This document shows positions 43,484 to 50,864 of a stretch of 64,000 bases of DNA, one piece after another. Where the stretch lies: the NCBI GenBank assembly GCA_003220535.1, contig QHSU01000055.1, forward strand, positions 124,001 through 188,000, in the 5' to 3' direction. The position numbers and the translations under genes were made by a program. A model generated the notes under the pieces. That model searched no databases. It was not told where the DNA came from and was given only the letters and a program-made list of their open reading frames with translations. The number at the start of each line of letters is the position of its first letter. Position 1 is the first letter of the stretch. The DNA comes from Candidatus Rokuibacteriota bacterium (lineage in GTDB: Bacteria; Methylomirabilota; Methylomirabilia; Rokubacteriales; CSP1-6).

Positions 43484-44395
43484 ATGGCGGAGAGGAAGTT
43501 CACGATCGTCGACGGCGGGCGGGCGGTCGAGGTGGACGAGCGCGAGGGCGTCGTGCTCGCGAAGCGCGCCGAGACCGCGGGGCGCCCGGTGGCGGTCGAC
43601 CTCGACGAGGGCGTCGCGTATCTGGGCGTGACGGCTCGCGAGCGGGCGGCGGCGCTCGCCTCGCTCGAGGCGCCGGACTTCAGGCTTCCCGACCTCGACG
43701 GGCGGCTCCATTCACTATCCGAGCATCGCGGCAAGAAGGTGCTCCTCGTCGCCTACGGGTCGTGGTGAGGGTGCCGCCTCGACCTGCCGGTCTGGCAGGC
43801 GGTGTACGGGGAGCTCCGCGGGTACGGCTTCACGGTGATCACGGTGGCGATCGACAAGAGCGCTGAGGACGCGCGTCCGTGGATCGCGGCGGCGAGGCCG
43901 ACGCACCCGTCGCTGATCGACACGACGCACGTGCTCGCCGACCTCTACAACATCGTGAACGTGCCGACGATTCTCTGGCTCGATGAGCGCGGCCGGATCG
44001 TCCGGCCGAACGACGTGGCCTTCGGCACCGACACCTTCAAGTCCATCACCGGGCTCGAGGCGGCCAAGCACCTCGCGGCGCTCCGCGCCTGGGTCCGCGG
44101 GGAGGCGACGGCGATTCCGGCGGCACGCGTTCGGGCGCTCCAGGCGCTGCCGACGGACGTCGACCAGCAGGCGCGCGCCGAATTCGGCCTGGGCGAGTGG
44201 CTGTTCACCAGGGGGCGAACCGAGGCGGCCACGCGCCATTTCGTGAGAGCCGGCGAGCTGGCACCCCACGACTTCACGATTCGACGGGGGACGATGCCCA
44301 TGCGCGGGATCGATCCCATGGGCCCGCAATTCCGCGAGATGCTCGGGGCGTGGGTCAAGGCAGGGAACCCTTACTATCGGCCGTTAGCGGAGTGA
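43484..44395 (+). CDS. Thioredoxin/redoxin-like selenoprotein (in-frame TGA read as Sec)
   Basis: 303 aa if the TGA at 43766-43768 is read through as Sec95. The fragments before (…KKVLLVAYGSW) and after (GCRLDLPVWQAVYGELRGYG…) are in the same frame and join to a continuous redoxin domain: FRLPDLDGRLHSLSEHRG leads the thioredoxin fold, and W-Sec-G-Cys sits where thioredoxins have WCxxC. PTILWLDERGRIVRP supplies the cis-Pro. A C-terminal helical tail follows. A SECIS-like hairpin occurs 15 nt behind the TGA (43783-43799). The alternative is a pseudogene, which the hairpin and uninterrupted frame argue against. Confidence 0.85.
43783..43799 (+). promoter_or_regulatory. Bacterial SECIS-like hairpin after in-frame TGA
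   Basis: A perfect 6-bp stem (CCTGCC 43783-43788 / GGCAGG 43794-43799) displays the loop GGTCT. The loop starts 20 nt after the TGA (43766-43768). In E. coli fdhF mRNA the SelB-binding loop also reads GGUCU and lies at nearly the same distance from UGA (18 nt). Bacterial SECIS elements are known to require a G in the first loop positions and a distance of about 16-37 nt; both hold here. Confidence 0.8.
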
Positions 44396-44397
44396 CC

Positions 44398-45390
44398 ATG
44401 GGAATGCTCAGCGGAAAGACGGCGCTGGTGACAGGCGCGGGACGAGGCATCGGCCGCGGGATCGCGCTCGCGCTCGCCGCGGCGGGGGCGAAGGTGGTCG
44501 TCAACGACATCGGCGCCTCCTTGAGCGGCGAGGGCGTCGAGAACACGCCCGCCCAGTCGGTGGTGGACGAGATCGTCAAGGCGGGCGGCGCGGCGCAGCC
44601 CAACTACGGCTCCGTCGCGGACTTCGGCAAGGCCGCCGCGATGGTCCAGCAGGCGATCGACAGCTGGGGCCGGATCGACATCGTGGTGCACGTCGCCGGC
44701 ATCCTGCGCGACCGGATGATCTTCAATATGACCGAGGACGAGTGGGACGCGGTGATCAACGTGCACCTCAAAGGGATGTTCAACGTGGTGCGCGCCGCCT
44801 CCGTCTCGATGCGCGAGCAGAAGGGCGGGCGCATCATCAGCATGTCGTCGGTGTCCGCGCTCGGAGCGCCGGGGCAGCCAAACTACGCCGCCGCGAAGGC
44901 CGGGATCATCGGGCTCACGTGGTCGACGGCGAACGCGATGGCGAAATACGGCGTGACCGTGAACGCCATCATGCCGAGCGGGGCCACGCGCATGATCGAC
45001 TCGACGCCGAGGGGGCGGCAGGTTTTCGAGCAGACCGGCAAGTGGCCGAGCGAGCTGGCGGCCGGGACCGACCGCGACCCCGACAACGTGGCGCCCATCG
45101 TCGTCTACCTGGTGAGCGACGCCGGGGCGAGCGTCAGCGGCCAGGTCTTCCACGCGCGGGGCTACGGCTACACCCTGCTCGCCCAGCCCCACGCCGTGCG
45201 GCACATCAAGGCGGGGCGTCGCTGGGATCCCGAGGAGCTGGTGAAGATCTTCCCCGAGACGCTGGGCGGCCACCTGAAGCAGCCTCCGAGCATCGAGTTC
45301 GGCCAGAAGCTCGACGAGCGTCCCGCGGACGAGTGGCGAGACCTCGGCGGGGGTCGGCGCTTCTGGAAGTCGCGGTACGAGGAGCCGTGA
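44398..45390 (+). CDS. SDR family oxidoreductase (MFE-2 / 17-beta-HSD4-like)
   Basis: 330 aa. The NAD-binding motif TGAGRGIGRGIAL, the catalytic Ser (ISMSSVSALG) and YAAAKAG (YxxxK) are in place. The length beyond a normal 250-aa SDR and the middle block IVVHVAGILRDRMIFNMTEDEW match the hydroxyacyl-CoA dehydrogenase part of peroxisomal multifunctional enzyme 2 and its bacterial relatives, which act in beta-oxidation of bulky acyl-CoAs. ATG 44398 is 2 bp after the previous stop. The 3' end overlaps the phosphatase start. Confidence 0.9.
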   Translation: MGMLSGKTALVTGAGRGIGRGIALALAAAGAKVVVNDIGASLSGEGVENTPAQSVVDEIVKAGGAAQPNYGSVADFGKAAAMVQQAIDSWGRIDIVVHVAGILRDRMIFNMTEDEWDAVINVHLKGMFNVVRAASVSMREQKGGRIISMSSVSALGAPGQPNYAAAKAGIIGLTWSTANAMAKYGVTVNAIMPSGATRMIDSTPRGRQVFEQTGKWPSELAAGTDRDPDNVAPIVVYLVSDAGASVSGQVFHARGYGYTLLAQPHAVRHIKAGRRWDPEELVKIFPETLGGHLKQPPSIEFGQKLDERPADEWRDLGGGRRFWKSRYEEP

Positions 45391-45869
45391 AGACCGTTCT
45401 CGTGGTATGCCACGCCAATACCGCGCGAAGCGTGATGGCCCAGGCGCTCCTGGAGCGGATGTTGGCGCGGCAGGGCATCGATGGCGCCATCCGCGTCAGG
45501 TCGGGAGGGATCGCCAACTACGCGCGAGATGGCATGATCGCCTCGCTCGACGCGCGCCTGGCGCTCCGTGAGGAGGGCATCCACCTGGCCGAGGATGACT
45601 TCGCCTCGACCGACCTCAAGCGCCACCGCCACCTCCTCGCCGAGGCGGACCTGATCCTGACGATGACCGGGCTCCAGAAGCAGATGCTGGGCGCCTTCGA
45701 CGAGGCCCGCGACCGGCCCGTGTTCACGCTCCGGGAGTTCGTGGGCGAGGACGGGGACATCGATGATCCGGCCACCCAGGGCGAGGAGGTGTTCCGCGTC
45801 TGCCGTGACGAGATCAAGCGTTGCCTGGAAAAATCGGTCCCGCGCCTGCTGATGATATTGTCGGGGTGA
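45387..45869 (+). CDS. Low-molecular-weight protein-tyrosine-phosphatase-like protein
   Basis: 160 aa. The P-loop is VCHANTARSVMAQALL (C-x5-R with Ser), and the general-acid loop is GDIDDPATQGEEVF. These features identify LMW-PTP; the related arsenate reductase fold is less likely because the extra Cys pair is missing. Its target in this cluster may be a signalling protein, but no tyrosine kinase is nearby. GTG 45387 overlaps the SDR stop (GTGA). Confidence 0.8.
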   Translation: MKTVLVVCHANTARSVMAQALLERMLARQGIDGAIRVRSGGIANYARDGMIASLDARLALREEGIHLAEDDFASTDLKRHRHLLAEADLILTMTGLQKQMLGAFDEARDRPVFTLREFVGEDGDIDDPATQGEEVFRVCRDEIKRCLEKSVPRLLMILSG

Positions 45870-45883
45870 AGCGGGAGGCCTCG

Positions 45884-45952
45884 ATGACCGACGCGTCGTT
45901 CGACATCTGCTTTGCCGGCCGGTCGTCGAATGACGGCATGAGAGGCGCGTGA
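45884..45952 (+). CDS. Possible 22-codon leader peptide before the histidine kinase
   Basis: ATG 45884 is preceded by GGGAGG at 7-nt spacing and encodes MTDASFDICFAGRSSNDGMR then GA and a stop whose TGA overlaps the histidine kinase GTG (GTGA at 45949-45952). The arrangement looks like translational coupling of a leader ORF to the kinase. Too short for family assignment. Confidence 0.35.
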   Translation: MTDASFDICFAGRSSNDGMRGA

Positions 45953-48900
45953 CTCCCCGCGGCCGTCTCTTCCGGAAGTACGTGGTCGTCTTCGCCGGCT
46001 TGGTCAGTGGGGCCCTGCTCGCGTCCGGCGCCATCGAGATCTATTTCTCCTACCACGAAAACCGCGACGCGCTCGTCGCGCTCCAGCGCGAGAAGGCCCT
46101 GGGCGTGGCCGCGCGCATCGAAGACTTCATCAAGGAGATCGAGAAGCAGATCGGCTGGACAACGCAGCCACAGCTCGGCGCGCCGTCGGCGGCGATGTAC
46201 CAGCGTCGCGTCGACTACCTGCGACTGCTCCGTCAGGTGCTGGCGATCACCGAGATCAGCCATCTCGACGCCGAGGGCAAGGAGCAGCTGCGCGTCTCGC
46301 GCCTGGCGATGGACGTCGCCGGCAGCCAGACCGACTACTCGCACGAGCCGAAGTTCGTCGAGACCAAGGCCGGAAAGGTCTACCACGGGCCAGTGTACTT
46401 CCGGAAGGGGTCCGAGCCCTACATGACGATCGCCATGGCCGGGAGCGGCCAGCGTGCCGGCGTGACCGTGGCCGAGGTCAATTTGAAGTTCATCTGGGAC
46501 GTCGTCTCCCAGATCAAGATCGGAAAAGCCGGCCACGCCTTCGTCCTCGACGGCCAGGGCGCCCTCATTGCGCATCCGGACATCAGTCTGGTGCTCCAGC
46601 AGACGACCTTCGCCGGGCTCGACCAGGTCAAGGCCGCGCTCGCCGGTGCGCCTTCGCCCGGTGAGCAGCGGCGGCAAGTGATGATCGCACGGGATCTCAA
46701 GGACCGGCGCGTGATGACAGCCTACGCGACCATCGCGTCGCTCAAGTGGTCCGTCTTCGTGGAGCAGCCGCTCGAGGAGGCGTTCGAGACCCTCTACGCC
46801 TCGATCCAGCGCACGATCGGCCTCCTCGTGCTCGGCGTGCTGCTGGCGGTGGCGGCGAGCCTGGTCCTCGCCCGGCGGATGGTCACGCCGATCCAGGCGC
46901 TGCAGGCCGGTGCGGCCCGGATCGGCGCCGGCGAGCTGGAGCAGCGAATCGACGTCAGGACGGGCGACGAGCTGGAGGCGCTGGGCGATCAGTTCAACAG
47001 CATGGCCACCCAGCTCAAGGAGTCGTACGCCGGGCTCGAGCGCAAGGTCGAGGAGCGTACGCACGAGCTGACCGAGTCGCTCGAGCAGCAGACGGCGACC
47101 GCCGAGATCCTGCGCGTCATCTCGAGCTCGCCGACCGACGTCCAGCCCGTGTTCGATGCGATAGCCGAGAGCGCGGTGCGGTTGTGCGGCGCGCTTTTCA
47201 GTTCCGTCTATCGCTACGATGGCGAACTGATCCACATGGTCGCGCACTACAATTACCCGCAGGCGGCCCTCGATCTTTCGGAGCGTGCCTTTCCGGCTCG
47301 ACCGGGGCGCCATCTGTTTTCGGGCCTGGCGATTCTGGAGCGGCGGGTCGTCCACGTCCCCGACGTGCTGAGCGACGCCGAGCACGCGTTCGCTCACAAC
47401 CTCGCGCGGACGGCCGGCTTCCGCAGCGTGCTGTCGGTTCCGATGCTCCGCGGTGACAACCCGACCGGAGCGATCACGGTGTGGCACACCGACGTCGGTC
47501 CGTTCTCGGAAAAGCATATCGAGCTGCTGAAGACCTTCGCCGACCAGGCCGTCATTGCCGTCGAGAACGTGCGCCTCTTCATCGAACTGCAGGAACGGAA
47601 TCGTGAGGTCACCGAGGCGCTCGAGCAACAGACGGCGACGGGAGAGATTCTCCGCGTCATCTCGAGCTCGCCGACCGACGTGCAACCCGTGCTGGACGCG
47701 GTGACGGAGAGCGCGGCTCGCCTCTGCGAAGTGCCCGACGTCGCCATCATGCGACTGGATGGCGAGCGGTTCCGCCTGGTCGCGCATCACGGACCGGTTC
47801 CGATCGGGCCTATTGGCCACTTCGAGATCCCGCTCGGGCTCGGCACGGTGGGCGGCCGCGCCATGATCGAGCGTCGAACGATCCACGTGCCGGACCTCCA
47901 GGCCGCGGCCGCCGAGTTCCCCCAGGGGTCCCAGCTCGGGCAGCAGTACGGCAACCGAACGACGCTCGCGGTCCCCTTGCTGAGAGAGGGACAGCCGATC
48001 GGGTTCATCCTGCTCCGGCGCCTCGAGGTCCGTCCCTTCAGCGACAAGCAGATCGCTCTCCTCCAGAGCTTTGCGGACCAGGCGGTCATCGCGATCGAGA
48101 ACGTGCGCCTGTTCCAGGAGCTGCAGGCGCGGACGGGTGAGCTGGCCCGCTCGGTCGACGAGCTGCAGGCGCTCGGCGAGGTCGGTCGGGCAGTCAGCTC
48201 GACGCTCGACCTCGAGACGGTGCTGGCGACCATCGTGTCGCGGGCCAGCCAGCTCTCGGGCACCGATGGAGGCGCGATCTACGAGTACGACGAGGAAGCG
48301 GAGGAGTTCCACCTGCGCGCCACGCAGAACCTCGACGCGGACCTCGTGGAGCAGCTCCGCTCGACGGTCATCCGCAAAGGGGTGGGCGCGGTCGGCCGTC
48401 TGGCCGTGACCCTCGAGCCGACGCAGGTCCCCGACATCGAGCGGGATAGCACGTATCAGAGCCCGCTGAGACATGCGGCCATCGGCGCCGGCTATCGCGC
48501 GCTGCTCGCGGTGCCGCTTCTTCGTGAGAACCGCATCATCGGCGGGCTCGTCGTGAACCGGAAGAGCCCCGGGGAATTCGCGCCCGACGTCATCGAGCTG
48601 CTCCGGACCTTCGCCGCCCAGTCGGCCCTGGCCATCCAGAACGCACGTCTCTTCCAGGAGATCGAGGAGAAGAGCCGGCAGCTCGAGGTGGCCAATCGCC
48701 ACAAGTCGGAGTTCCTCGCGAGCATGTCGCACGAGCTCCGGACGCCGCTCAACGCCGTCATCGGGTTCTCGGAAGTCCTGCTCGAGCGGATGTTCGGCGA
48801 GATCAACGACAAGCAGGACGAGTACCTGCAAGACATCCTCGCCTCCGGTCGGCACCTGCTGTCGCTCATCAACGACATTCTCGACCTCGCCAAGATCGAG

Positions 48901-49395
48901 GCCGGTCGCATGGAGCTGGAGGTGACCGAGTTCCATCTGCCGCAGGCGATCGACAACGCGATCACGCTGGTGCGCGAGCGCGCCGCGCGCCGGGCGATCA
49001 CGCTCGAGGTCGACGTCGACCCGCGGCTCGGCGAGATCAAGGGCGACGAGCGGAAGGTCAAGCAGGTGCTCCTGAACCTCCTGTCCAACGCCATCAAGTT
49101 CACACCGGAGGGCGGGCACGTGGGCGTCCACGCCGCCCTTGCGGACGGCTTCGCCGAGATCTCGGTGACGGATACCGGCGTCGGGATCGCGCCCGAGGAC
49201 CACGAGGCCGTCTTCGAGGAGTTCCGCCAGGTGGGGACCGACTACGCCAAGAAGCACGAGGGCACAGGCCTGGGCTTGACGCTCTCGCGACGATTCGTCG
49301 CGCTGCACGGCGGCAAGATCTGGGTGAAGAGCCAGCTGGGCCAGGGCGCGACGTTCACCTTCACACTCCCGGTGAATCCATGGCAAACGAGCTGA
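45949..49395 (+). CDS. Hybrid-type sensor histidine kinase: Cache, HAMP, three GAF, HisKA, HATPase
   Basis: 1148 aa. TM1 (KYVVVFAGLVSGALLASGAI), an extracytoplasmic Cache-like sensor to ~285, TM2 (TIGLLVLGVLLAVAASLVLA), HAMP (MVTPIQALQAGAARIGAGEL), then three GAF domains (~385-900) connected by repeated linkers (LEQQTATGEILRVISSSPTD occurs twice, near 380 and 560, almost identical). The phosphoacceptor is His928 in SMSHELRTPLNAVIG; the ATP domain has DTGVGIAPEDHEAVFEEFRQ and GLGLTLSRRFV. No receiver domain is attached, but two REC genes follow. GTG 45949 is the start. It overlaps the next gene by 16 bp. Confidence 0.92.
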   Translation: MTPRGRLFRKYVVVFAGLVSGALLASGAIEIYFSYHENRDALVALQREKALGVAARIEDFIKEIEKQIGWTTQPQLGAPSAAMYQRRVDYLRLLRQVLAITEISHLDAEGKEQLRVSRLAMDVAGSQTDYSHEPKFVETKAGKVYHGPVYFRKGSEPYMTIAMAGSGQRAGVTVAEVNLKFIWDVVSQIKIGKAGHAFVLDGQGALIAHPDISLVLQQTTFAGLDQVKAALAGAPSPGEQRRQVMIARDLKDRRVMTAYATIASLKWSVFVEQPLEEAFETLYASIQRTIGLLVLGVLLAVAASLVLARRMVTPIQALQAGAARIGAGELEQRIDVRTGDELEALGDQFNSMATQLKESYAGLERKVEERTHELTESLEQQTATAEILRVISSSPTDVQPVFDAIAESAVRLCGALFSSVYRYDGELIHMVAHYNYPQAALDLSERAFPARPGRHLFSGLAILERRVVHVPDVLSDAEHAFAHNLARTAGFRSVLSVPMLRGDNPTGAITVWHTDVGPFSEKHIELLKTFADQAVIAVENVRLFIELQERNREVTEALEQQTATGEILRVISSSPTDVQPVLDAVTESAARLCEVPDVAIMRLDGERFRLVAHHGPVPIGPIGHFEIPLGLGTVGGRAMIERRTIHVPDLQAAAAEFPQGSQLGQQYGNRTTLAVPLLREGQPIGFILLRRLEVRPFSDKQIALLQSFADQAVIAIENVRLFQELQARTGELARSVDELQALGEVGRAVSSTLDLETVLATIVSRASQLSGTDGGAIYEYDEEAEEFHLRATQNLDADLVEQLRSTVIRKGVGAVGRLAVTLEPTQVPDIERDSTYQSPLRHAAIGAGYRALLAVPLLRENRIIGGLVVNRKSPGEFAPDVIELLRTFAAQSALAIQNARLFQEIEEKSRQLEVANRHKSEFLASMSHELRTPLNAVIGFSEVLLERMFGEINDKQDEYLQDILASGRHLLSLINDILDLAKIEAGRMELEVTEFHLPQAIDNAITLVRERAARRAITLEVDVDPRLGEIKGDERKVKQVLLNLLSNAIKFTPEGGHVGVHAALADGFAEISVTDTGVGIAPEDHEAVFEEFRQVGTDYAKKHEGTGLGLTLSRRFVALHGGKIWVKSQLGQGATFTFTLPVNPWQTS

Positions 49396-49763
49396 TCCTG
49401 ATCGTCGAGGACAACGACAAGAACCTCAAGCTCGTGCGTGACGTGCTCCAGCACCGCGGTTATCAGACGATCGAGGCGGGCACGGGCGAGGACGGCGTAC
49501 GGCTCGCGAAGGAGCGCCATCCCGACCTGGTCCTCATGGACATCCTGCTTCCGGGGATCGATGGCATCGCGGCCCTCGGCCAGCTCCGCGCCGACGCCGC
49601 GACGCGCGCGATCCCGGTGATCGCGGTGACGGCGTCGGTCATGACCCACGATCGCAAGAAGGTCATGGACGCCGGGTTCGACGGCTACCAGTCCAAGCCG
49701 ATCAAGGTGAAGGAGTTCATCGAGGCGGTGCGCGAGATGCTGGACCGCCGGGCCGGAGCGTAG
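49380..49763 (+). CDS. Single-domain response regulator (CheY/DivK-like)
   Basis: 127 aa, a receiver domain only. The phosphoacceptor is Asp54 in LVLMDILLPGIDG, the acidic pair is in IVEDNDKN, the Thr/Ser switch is in AVTASVM and the Lys is in SKPIKVKE. It starts inside the histidine kinase gene (16-bp overlap), indicating it is its direct partner. With no output domain it must act by protein interaction or in a phosphorelay. Confidence 0.92.
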   Translation: MANELILIVEDNDKNLKLVRDVLQHRGYQTIEAGTGEDGVRLAKERHPDLVLMDILLPGIDGIAALGQLRADAATRAIPVIAVTASVMTHDRKKVMDAGFDGYQSKPIKVKEFIEAVREMLDRRAGA

Positions 49764-49772
49764 CCGCTCGCC

Positions 49773-50864
49773 ATGCCCGAGAAAGTCCTCGTCGTCGACG
49801 ATATGCCCGTCAACGTGAAGCTTCTCGCCGACCTCCTGGCCGTGAAGGGCTACGCCGTCGTCACGGCCGCCAACGGCGCGGAGGCGCTCGCGAAGGTCGA
49901 CAAGGAGCAGCCCGGGCTCGTGCTGCTCGACGTCATGATGCCCGGGATGAGCGGCTACGACGTCTGCCGGAAGCTCCGCGAGAACCCGGCGACGGCGATG
50001 CTGCCCGTCATCATGGTAACGGCGCTCGATCCGGCCCAGGAGCGCGTGAAGGGGATCGAGGCGGGCGCCGACGACTTCCTGACCAAGCCCATCAACCAGC
50101 CCGAGCTCCTGGCGCGCGTGAAGTCCTTGCTGAGGATCAAGCTGCTCCACGACGAGCTCGCCGAGTGGAACCGGACCCTCGCGCAGCGCGTCGAGCAGCA
50201 ACTCGCCCAGCTCGACCGCTTCGAGCGGCTCAAGCGCTTCTTCTCGCCCCAGCTCGCCGAGCTGATCGTGAGCGGCGACGCCGAGGACCCGCTGAAGAGC
50301 CACCGGCGCGAGATCACCGTGGTCTTCCTCGACCTCCGCGGCTTCACCGCCTTCGCCGAGACGTCCGAGCCCGAGGAGGTCATGAGCGTGCTCCGGGAGT
50401 ACCACACCGCGATGGGGCGAGTCATCGTCGAGCACGAGGGGACGCTCGAGCGCTTCACCGGCGATGGGATGATGATCTTCTTCAACGATCCCGTGCCGGT
50501 GCCCGACGCGCCGGAGCGCTCCGTGCGGATGGCCGTGGCGATGCGCGAGCGGGTGGACGAGCTGCTGGTGACGTGGCGCAAGCGCGGCTACGATCTCGAC
50601 TTCGGCGTTGGCATCGCCCAGGGTTACGCGACGATCGGCGCGATCGGGTTCGAGGGCCGCATGGACTATGGCGCGATCGGCACCGTGACCAACATGGCCG
50701 CGCGGCTCTGCGGCGAGGCCAAGCCGCGCCAGATCCTCATCGCGCAGCGCGTGCTCGGGGCGGTCGAGGCGCTGGTCGAGGTGGAGGAGCTGGGCGGCCT
50801 CACGCTGAAGGGCTTCTCGAGGCCGGTCCCCGCCTTCAACGTCCTCCAGCTGAAGACCTCGTGA
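49773..50864 (+). CDS. Response regulator with class III adenylate/guanylate cyclase domain
   Basis: 363 aa. An N-terminal receiver (Asp53 in LVLLDVMMPGMSG, Lys in TKPINQPE) is joined by a helical linker (ARVKSLLRIKLLHDELAEWN) to a class III cyclase domain (~175-360). The metal-binding Asp residues are in VFLDLRGFTAFAE and TGDGMMIFFND; the catalytic Asn/Arg region is in TVTNMAARLCGEA. Specificity for ATP or GTP cannot be decided by eye. Ten bp after the single-domain regulator, it is the likely cAMP/cGMP output of the kinase operon. The gene ends 13 bp before a convergent gene. Confidence 0.9.
   Translation: MPEKVLVVDDMPVNVKLLADLLAVKGYAVVTAANGAEALAKVDKEQPGLVLLDVMMPGMSGYDVCRKLRENPATAMLPVIMVTALDPAQERVKGIEAGADDFLTKPINQPELLARVKSLLRIKLLHDELAEWNRTLAQRVEQQLAQLDRFERLKRFFSPQLAELIVSGDAEDPLKSHRREITVVFLDLRGFTAFAETSEPEEVMSVLREYHTAMGRVIVEHEGTLERFTGDGMMIFFNDPVPVPDAPERSVRMAVAMRERVDELLVTWRKRGYDLDFGVGIAQGYATIGAIGFEGRMDYGAIGTVTNMAARLCGEAKPRQILIAQRVLGAVEALVEVEELGGLTLKGFSRPVPAFNVLQLKTS

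Follow-up and report, generated by a model that had tools for sequence, protein, structure and literature searches.

An in-frame TGA in a soil Rokubacterial gene is very probably the selenocysteine codon of a ResA/TlpA-like oxidoreductase with a Sec-Gly-Cys motif

ResA and TlpA proteins are exported or membrane-bound. Their structures (PDB 2f9s, 1st9, and 1jfu) have a thioredoxin fold with a CxxC motif, a tryptophan before the first redox residue, and a VPT loop. Proteins with a Sec-Gly-Cys (UGC) motif in an AhpC-TSA/TlpA-type domain have been recorded previously. Table 2 of the 2008 GOS marine survey (PMC2398784) gives 46 sequences as 'Prx-like (UGC-containing)', and UGC-containing Prx-like or TlpA proteins are listed in PMC9312934 and in Table 1 of PMC13188914 (cd02966, UGC); by their description, these entries resemble the protein described here and may belong to its family. 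The term UGC does not occur in the word-searchable portions of PMC12013277 and PMC5029168. The closest described family is NCBIfam NF041054 (WAxxUGC_long, 'ResA-like WAxxUGC motif-containing protein'). No paper was found that names NF041054 or WAxxUGC, and a limited literature search found no bench study of the family.

The gene described here lies in a 64,000-nucleotide stretch of DNA, which was analyzed as a whole and is called the window. The window is part of contig C64 of a genome of 7.18 Mb in 162 contigs, and the nearest named relatives are metagenome assemblies of Candidatus Rokubacteria/Rokuibacteriota, at no more than 86% identity. The gene starts with an ATG at 43484, just downstream of AGGAG, and ends with a TGA at 44393–44395. 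Its only further in-frame stop is the TGA of codon 95, and a single continuous frame is interrupted there, as had been predicted from the sequence. The features of the locus are collected in the table.

Table. Features of the predicted selenoprotein locus (positions in the window)
Feature	Position	Strand	Basis or detail
Gene for predicted Sec-containing ResA/TlpA-like oxidoreductase	43484..44395	+	303 codons and stop; TGA at codon 95 read as Sec
Thioredoxin-fold (AhpC-TSA/redoxin) domain, residues about 62–177, with NVPT at 159–162	43667..44014	+	Pfam, AlphaFold2 model, Foldseek
TGA, read as Sec95, first redox residue of the W-U-G-C-R motif	43766..43768	+	Codon counts in homologues
TGC, Cys97, presumed resolving residue and sole other Sec/Cys of the protein	43772..43774	+	
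Bacterial SECIS-like hairpin, 6-bp stem and 5-nt loop GGTCT	43783..43799	+	Pair conservation in TGA copies
C-terminal helical (TPR-like) domain	44030..44359	+	Model helices, residues 183–292
Low-molecular-weight phosphatase gene, recurrent downstream in the window's phylum	45387..45869	+	PF01451, E 4e-22

The perfect hairpin predicted behind the TGA was likewise found, with its stem beginning 14 nt and its loop 20 nt from the TGA. Its arms are CCTGCC (43783–43788) and GGCAGG (43794–43799), and the loop between them (43789–43793) is presumably the same as that of the E. coli fdhF SECIS. This geometry (perfect 6-bp stem, exact offset, and 5-nt loop) occurs at three of the 1482 TGA trinucleotides on the two strands of the window, while a loose hairpin rule is satisfied at 48 of them. 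Thirty-three TGAs have at least 90 open codons before them and at least 190 after; three of these have a loose hairpin, and when the first hairpin for each TGA is considered, codon 95 is the only one of the 33 with G in the first two loop positions. The folding energy of the 50 nt from the TGA shows no excess over shuffled sequences (z 0.52; 140 of 200 shuffles equal or better), and an Rfam scan of the region returned three matches, all below threshold and without meaning. In a sequence as GC-rich as this, the frame and hairpin by themselves are no more than suggestive, and the reading of the TGA as Sec was decided on comparative evidence.

The predicted alternation of TGA with cysteine codons was found in homologues of the gene. 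The codon equivalent to codon 95 is TGA in 108 of 122 distinct homologues, TGC in 11, and TGT in three, and no other codon occurs. These 122 copies remain after removal of near-identical ones from 136 aligned rows (TGA in 121, TGC in 12, and TGT in three), rows aligned over 150 or fewer positions having been dropped; a further copy outside the alignment (L046) has TGA at this codon. Every row without TGA has a cysteine codon, and neither Trp, Arg, nor a gap occurs at this position among the 136 rows. On a tree of the 122 copies, built by a quick method with the Sec column left out, there are eight changes between Sec and Cys, five of which are forced by starred branches. The copies were gathered from three groups. 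An NF041054 search of the window's phylum covered 95 genomes, with the codon read in 30 loci; some 22 additional rows with a TGA appear in the results of this search and stand outside the counts. The class of Aquihabitans comprised 296 genomes, 92 of which have a match at E 1e-40 or better, and the codon was read in 70 of 106 matches (30 returned loci and 40 that were picked). The phylum of isolate CTSoil_040 comprised 297 genomes, five with a match, and the codon was read in those loci.

These counts bear on whether the TGA results from a sequencing or assembly error, or whether this lineage has a changed code in which TGA specifies Trp. We found no evidence in support of either. TGA recurs in 29 of 30 related loci from the records of other, named genomes (the remaining one, from Aquihabitans sp. 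G128, has TGC) and in genomes of the two other groups, the 136 rows are devoid of Trp at this position, and TGA also terminates the window gene. We consider the probability of such an error or changed code to be negligible.

Two observations on individual copies were made in the course of this comparison. The sole departure from Sec-Gly-Cys among the 136 rows is a Sec-His-Cys motif in one copy (L154, G317:C189). In addition, six genomes of the Aquihabitans class have two inspected copies each, both with TGA and located on different main branches of the tree (G116, L102/L150; G156, L100/L139; G160, L095/L148; G192, L097/L153; G219, L091/L158; and G238, L113/L155), suggesting that the paired copies have distinct roles.

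The part of the gene downstream of the TGA has the substitution pattern of coding sequence. Third-position changes there exceed first- and second-position changes in all eight of the near relatives compared, which are equal in length to the window gene. In the comparison with L045, third codon positions account for 23 of 43 differences upstream of the TGA and for 44 of 71 downstream. The signal of purifying selection is weaker upstream, where the comparison with L026 gives 16 synonymous and 28 nonsynonymous codon differences. If the TGA were instead a true stop, the locus would consist of two adjacent genes or a truncated pseudogene, and the downstream piece does form an ORF with a GTG start at 43802; TGA is also the stop that this gene normally uses. 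However, a true stop does not fit with the persistence of TGA at one codon in the great majority of homologues and its exchange for cysteine codons alone, with the unbroken frames of the Cys homologues, with the evolution of the part behind the TGA as coding sequence in the same frame, or with the selenium machinery of the genome described below. We regard it as highly improbable.

The hairpin differs in its conservation between TGA and Cys copies. The inner five pairs are complete in 107 of 108 TGA copies as compared to eight of 14 Cys copies (Fisher p 5e-6, relatedness ignored), and all six pairs are complete in 97 of 108 and five of 14, respectively. Loop position 2 is G in all 108 TGA copies and in 12 of the 14 Cys copies. 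The hairpin is partly dictated by the conserved residues LPxWQ. Of the 107 TGA copies with leucine in the 5'-arm, 105 encode it by CTG, as opposed to seven of 14 Cys copies. Gene-wide, CTG makes up 37% and CTC 48% of leucine codons in the genes of this family, and the next leucine position, which is outside the stem, is mixed (CTG in 40 of 88 TGA copies). Only a few double changes preserve pairing: at the outer pair, C-G is replaced by G-C in two copies and by T-A in one, and at an inner pair G-C is replaced by T-A in one copy. Folding energy relative to synonymous recodings was rejected as a discriminator, with mean z of -1.1 for TGA and -0.8 for Cys copies and poor separation between them. 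Among five tree-independent pairs, neither an intact stem nor the CTG codon was significantly associated with Sec, in a test that is without power because there are only five such pairs. Taken as a comparison of sequences, these data support the view that TGA copies retain the hairpin to a greater extent than the encoded residues require, and hence that it is under selection.

The genome has the selenium machinery on which the original prediction depended, with selA, selB, selC, and selD all present and each above its curated cut-off. The genes for selB (354 bits), selA (593 bits), and tRNA-Sec (69.8 bits, anticodon TCA) are located within about 5 kb of one another on contig C107, while selD (335 bits) is on contig C1. 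The selD gene (L048, G000:C1:110596-111537) has an in-frame TGA of its own near the start, in the context C-A-G-U-A, and by its sequence the selenophosphate synthetase of this genome looks like a selenoprotein as well.

The presence of selB across the phylum was rejected as a test of co-occurrence because 84 of 95 genomes pass and the test does not discriminate. We used 40 genomes instead, chosen mainly by score, of which 26 have TGA copies and 14 have Cys copies (13 whose listed match crosses the motif without a stop, along with G206, in which the TGA counted for the match is located outside the motif). selB is above its cut-off in 23 of the 26 TGA genomes and in one of the 14 Cys genomes (Fisher p 6e-7). 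The tRNA-Sec results are similar: with the line set at 56 bits, a choice made once the scores were known, 23 of 26 TGA genomes have a match and none of the 14 Cys genomes does. At Rfam's own cut-off of 47 bits, five of the 14 Cys genomes also match, at 47–51 bits; given that second matches at 48–49 bits occur in some TGA genomes, we take these to be other tRNAs with a long arm. As for the exceptions, one TGA genome (G270) has neither selB above cut-off nor tRNA-Sec, two (G156 and G284) have tRNA-Sec but not selB above cut-off, and two more (G116 and G128 in our numbering of genomes) have selB but not tRNA-Sec at 56 bits or more. The Cys genome with a strong selB (G258, with copy L098) has it on contig C418 at 379 bits, in the score range of Rokubacterial selB; the contig may be a contaminant, or the gene a remnant of former Sec use. 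On the strength of these sequence comparisons, we conclude that the in-frame TGA of this soil-bacterium gene is almost certainly a selenocysteine codon.

The central domain of the protein matches Pfam PF00578 (AhpC-TSA; E 6e-15, residues 62–172) and Redoxin (E 9e-10), with weak similarity to GSHPx, and the C-terminal part matches TPR_12 at E 0.014, which is under Pfam's cut-off. Among NCBIfam models, NF041054 is followed by ResA, StoA, and TlpA, and sequence matches in the PDB are led by 4hqs ('thioredoxin family protein') and ResA. An AlphaFold2 model based on 25 rows has a pLDDT of 93.5 and a pTM of 0.90, and a Foldseek search with its central domain finds ResA at E 1e-10 (TM-score by target 0.76–0.77 for the two best). 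The protein had been predicted to be thioredoxin-like. This is so with respect to its fold, but both sequence and model place the domain with the ResA/TlpA type rather than with thioredoxin proper. We assume that the tryptophan preceding the redox residue is a ResA/TlpA feature, as is the VPT motif, and the proline of NVPT is presumably the cis-proline of the fold. Sec95 lies directly before the helix of residues 96–114 and aligns with the first cysteine of ResA's CxxC. The U-G-C motif is one residue shorter than CxxC, a spacing that is constant in the 136 rows. S93-W94-C/U95-G96-C97-R98, D100-L101-P102, and W104-Q105 are invariant in a 20-row alignment, though not in every distant copy. Unlike ResA and TlpA, the window protein has two additional parts, and no export signal or membrane anchor is visible by eye at its N-terminus.

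Sec is common in peroxidases, and Sec95 might be peroxidatic and be resolved by Cys97 from very close by, in which case the protein would be a selenoperoxidase of the Prx/GPx-like kind. The usual peroxidatic context, PxxxT(S)xxC, is absent from the sequence, however, and the ResA/TlpA-like tryptophan and VPT, the NCBIfam models next in rank, and structure and fold searches led by ResA-type proteins also argue against this activity. It has in its favor that AhpC-TSA is the best Pfam family, that GSHPx is weakly similar, and that the class goes by the name Prx-like in tables of earlier surveys. On balance, a selenoperoxidase seems unlikely, and we lean toward thiol-disulfide exchange as the main activity, in preference to the reduction of peroxides or sulfoxides.

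The window protein matches NF041054 with an E of 7e-63 and 213 bits, below the cut-off of 300; a long-form relative (L053) scores 368 bits. Thirteen of the 95 genomes of the phylum have a match above this cut-off, and the window's genome is not among them. The two share the U-G-C motif and the order of N-terminal part, thioredoxin domain, and helical C-terminus, and this E-value along with one alignment and tree indicates common ancestry. In contrast to the long form, which the NF041054 model describes and which is sister to the window's shorter branch, the window copy does not have the N-terminal GW-LKPEG-Cx4C segment, its C-terminal end is different (PYYRPL), and its identity to six long-form rows of the alignment is 42–43%. 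The segment, in the form GW-LKPEG-Cx4C-VPV, is common in the family. Its Cx4C is present in 96 of 120 assessable copies (incomplete rows L061 and L078 were left out) and missing in 24, including the window branch, and the tree requires five changes to account for this. The Sec-Gly-Cys arrangement had been called unusual. That description holds insofar as the spacing of CxxC is absent, but not as to novelty, as Sec-Gly-Cys in a thioredoxin fold is found in the three listings mentioned at the outset and in NF041054, which make this a known kind of protein. The present analysis adds a short branch that has just one Sec-Cys pair, the distribution of this branch among Rokubacteria, the way in which Sec and Cys alternate with selB, and the statistics of the hairpin.

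Our overall account, to which we assign a probability of about 0.9, is that the locus encodes one selenoprotein of 303 residues with a ResA/TlpA-type thioredoxin domain and chemistry carried out by Sec95 and Cys97. In translation, SelB with Sec-tRNA would bind the hairpin that begins 14 nt behind UGA codon 95 and thereby decode this codon, as the conservation of the hairpin suggests. The product would consist of a short N-terminal cap, the ResA/TlpA-type domain, and the TPR-like C-terminal domain, with no visible export signal. Sec95 would replace the nucleophilic first cysteine of CxxC at the start of helix 1, and one motif residue appears to be deleted, therefore placing Cys97 two residues after Sec95. 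The selenolate of Sec95 would probably attack a disulfide or other oxidized sulfur of a cytosolic partner, which is probably bound by the helical domain. The adduct would then be resolved by Cys97, and the Sec-Cys selenenylsulfide so formed would be returned to the reduced state by thioredoxin or a small thiol. A further and quite tentative idea is that the Rokubacterial branch represents a pared-down cytosolic selenoenzyme with a function of its own, in which the N-terminal Cx4C was lost and all chemistry therefore falls to one Sec and one Cys, with a strained selenenylsulfide of unusual redox potential; we think this doubtful.

The Rokubacterial surroundings of the gene include NUDIX, HpcH-aldolase, SDR, and low-molecular-weight phosphatase genes, and a Cache-HAMP-GAF histidine kinase is located downstream in 20 loci. 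Neighbors were counted through searches with the window's own neighbors, in flanks of about 300 nt for 40 loci and about 1.5 kb for most others, such that some neighbors could be missed. With duplicates included, the phosphatase was matched in 32 of 135 loci, all from Rokubacteria or the window's phylum, and the SDR in 33 of 135, some of these SDR matches (31–35% identity) being probably other SDRs. An all-against-all clustering of neighbors was confounded by overlapping GC-rich frames and was rejected. In the window itself, positions 45949–50864 encode a large dCache-HAMP-triple-GAF histidine kinase, a response regulator, and a response regulator-adenylate/guanylate cyclase.

The recurrence of the phosphatase gene, which in the majority of its 32 loci lies directly downstream or is separated by an SDR gene, raises the question of whether the selenoprotein partners this enzyme, reducing or protecting its active-site cysteine. 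No match to the phosphatase was obtained outside the window's phylum (with flanks of about 300 nt in 40 loci), and the cluster also contains the unrelated SDR. An apparent fusion of selenoprotein and phosphatase in one locus (L043) was rejected, as it consists of an N-filled assembly gap with a frame change. A partnership of this sort is improbable in our view, and we treat the two genes as associated only, without drawing a functional link.

Selenoprotein genes are easily split in two by gene callers. Because of this, and because the short branch falls under the cut-off of NF041054, the one NCBIfam model that would name it, the branch is probably misannotated across Rokubacteria. The alternation between Sec and Cys, tracking selB as it does, offers a well-defined natural comparison of what a thioredoxin-fold enzyme of soil bacteria gains from selenium.
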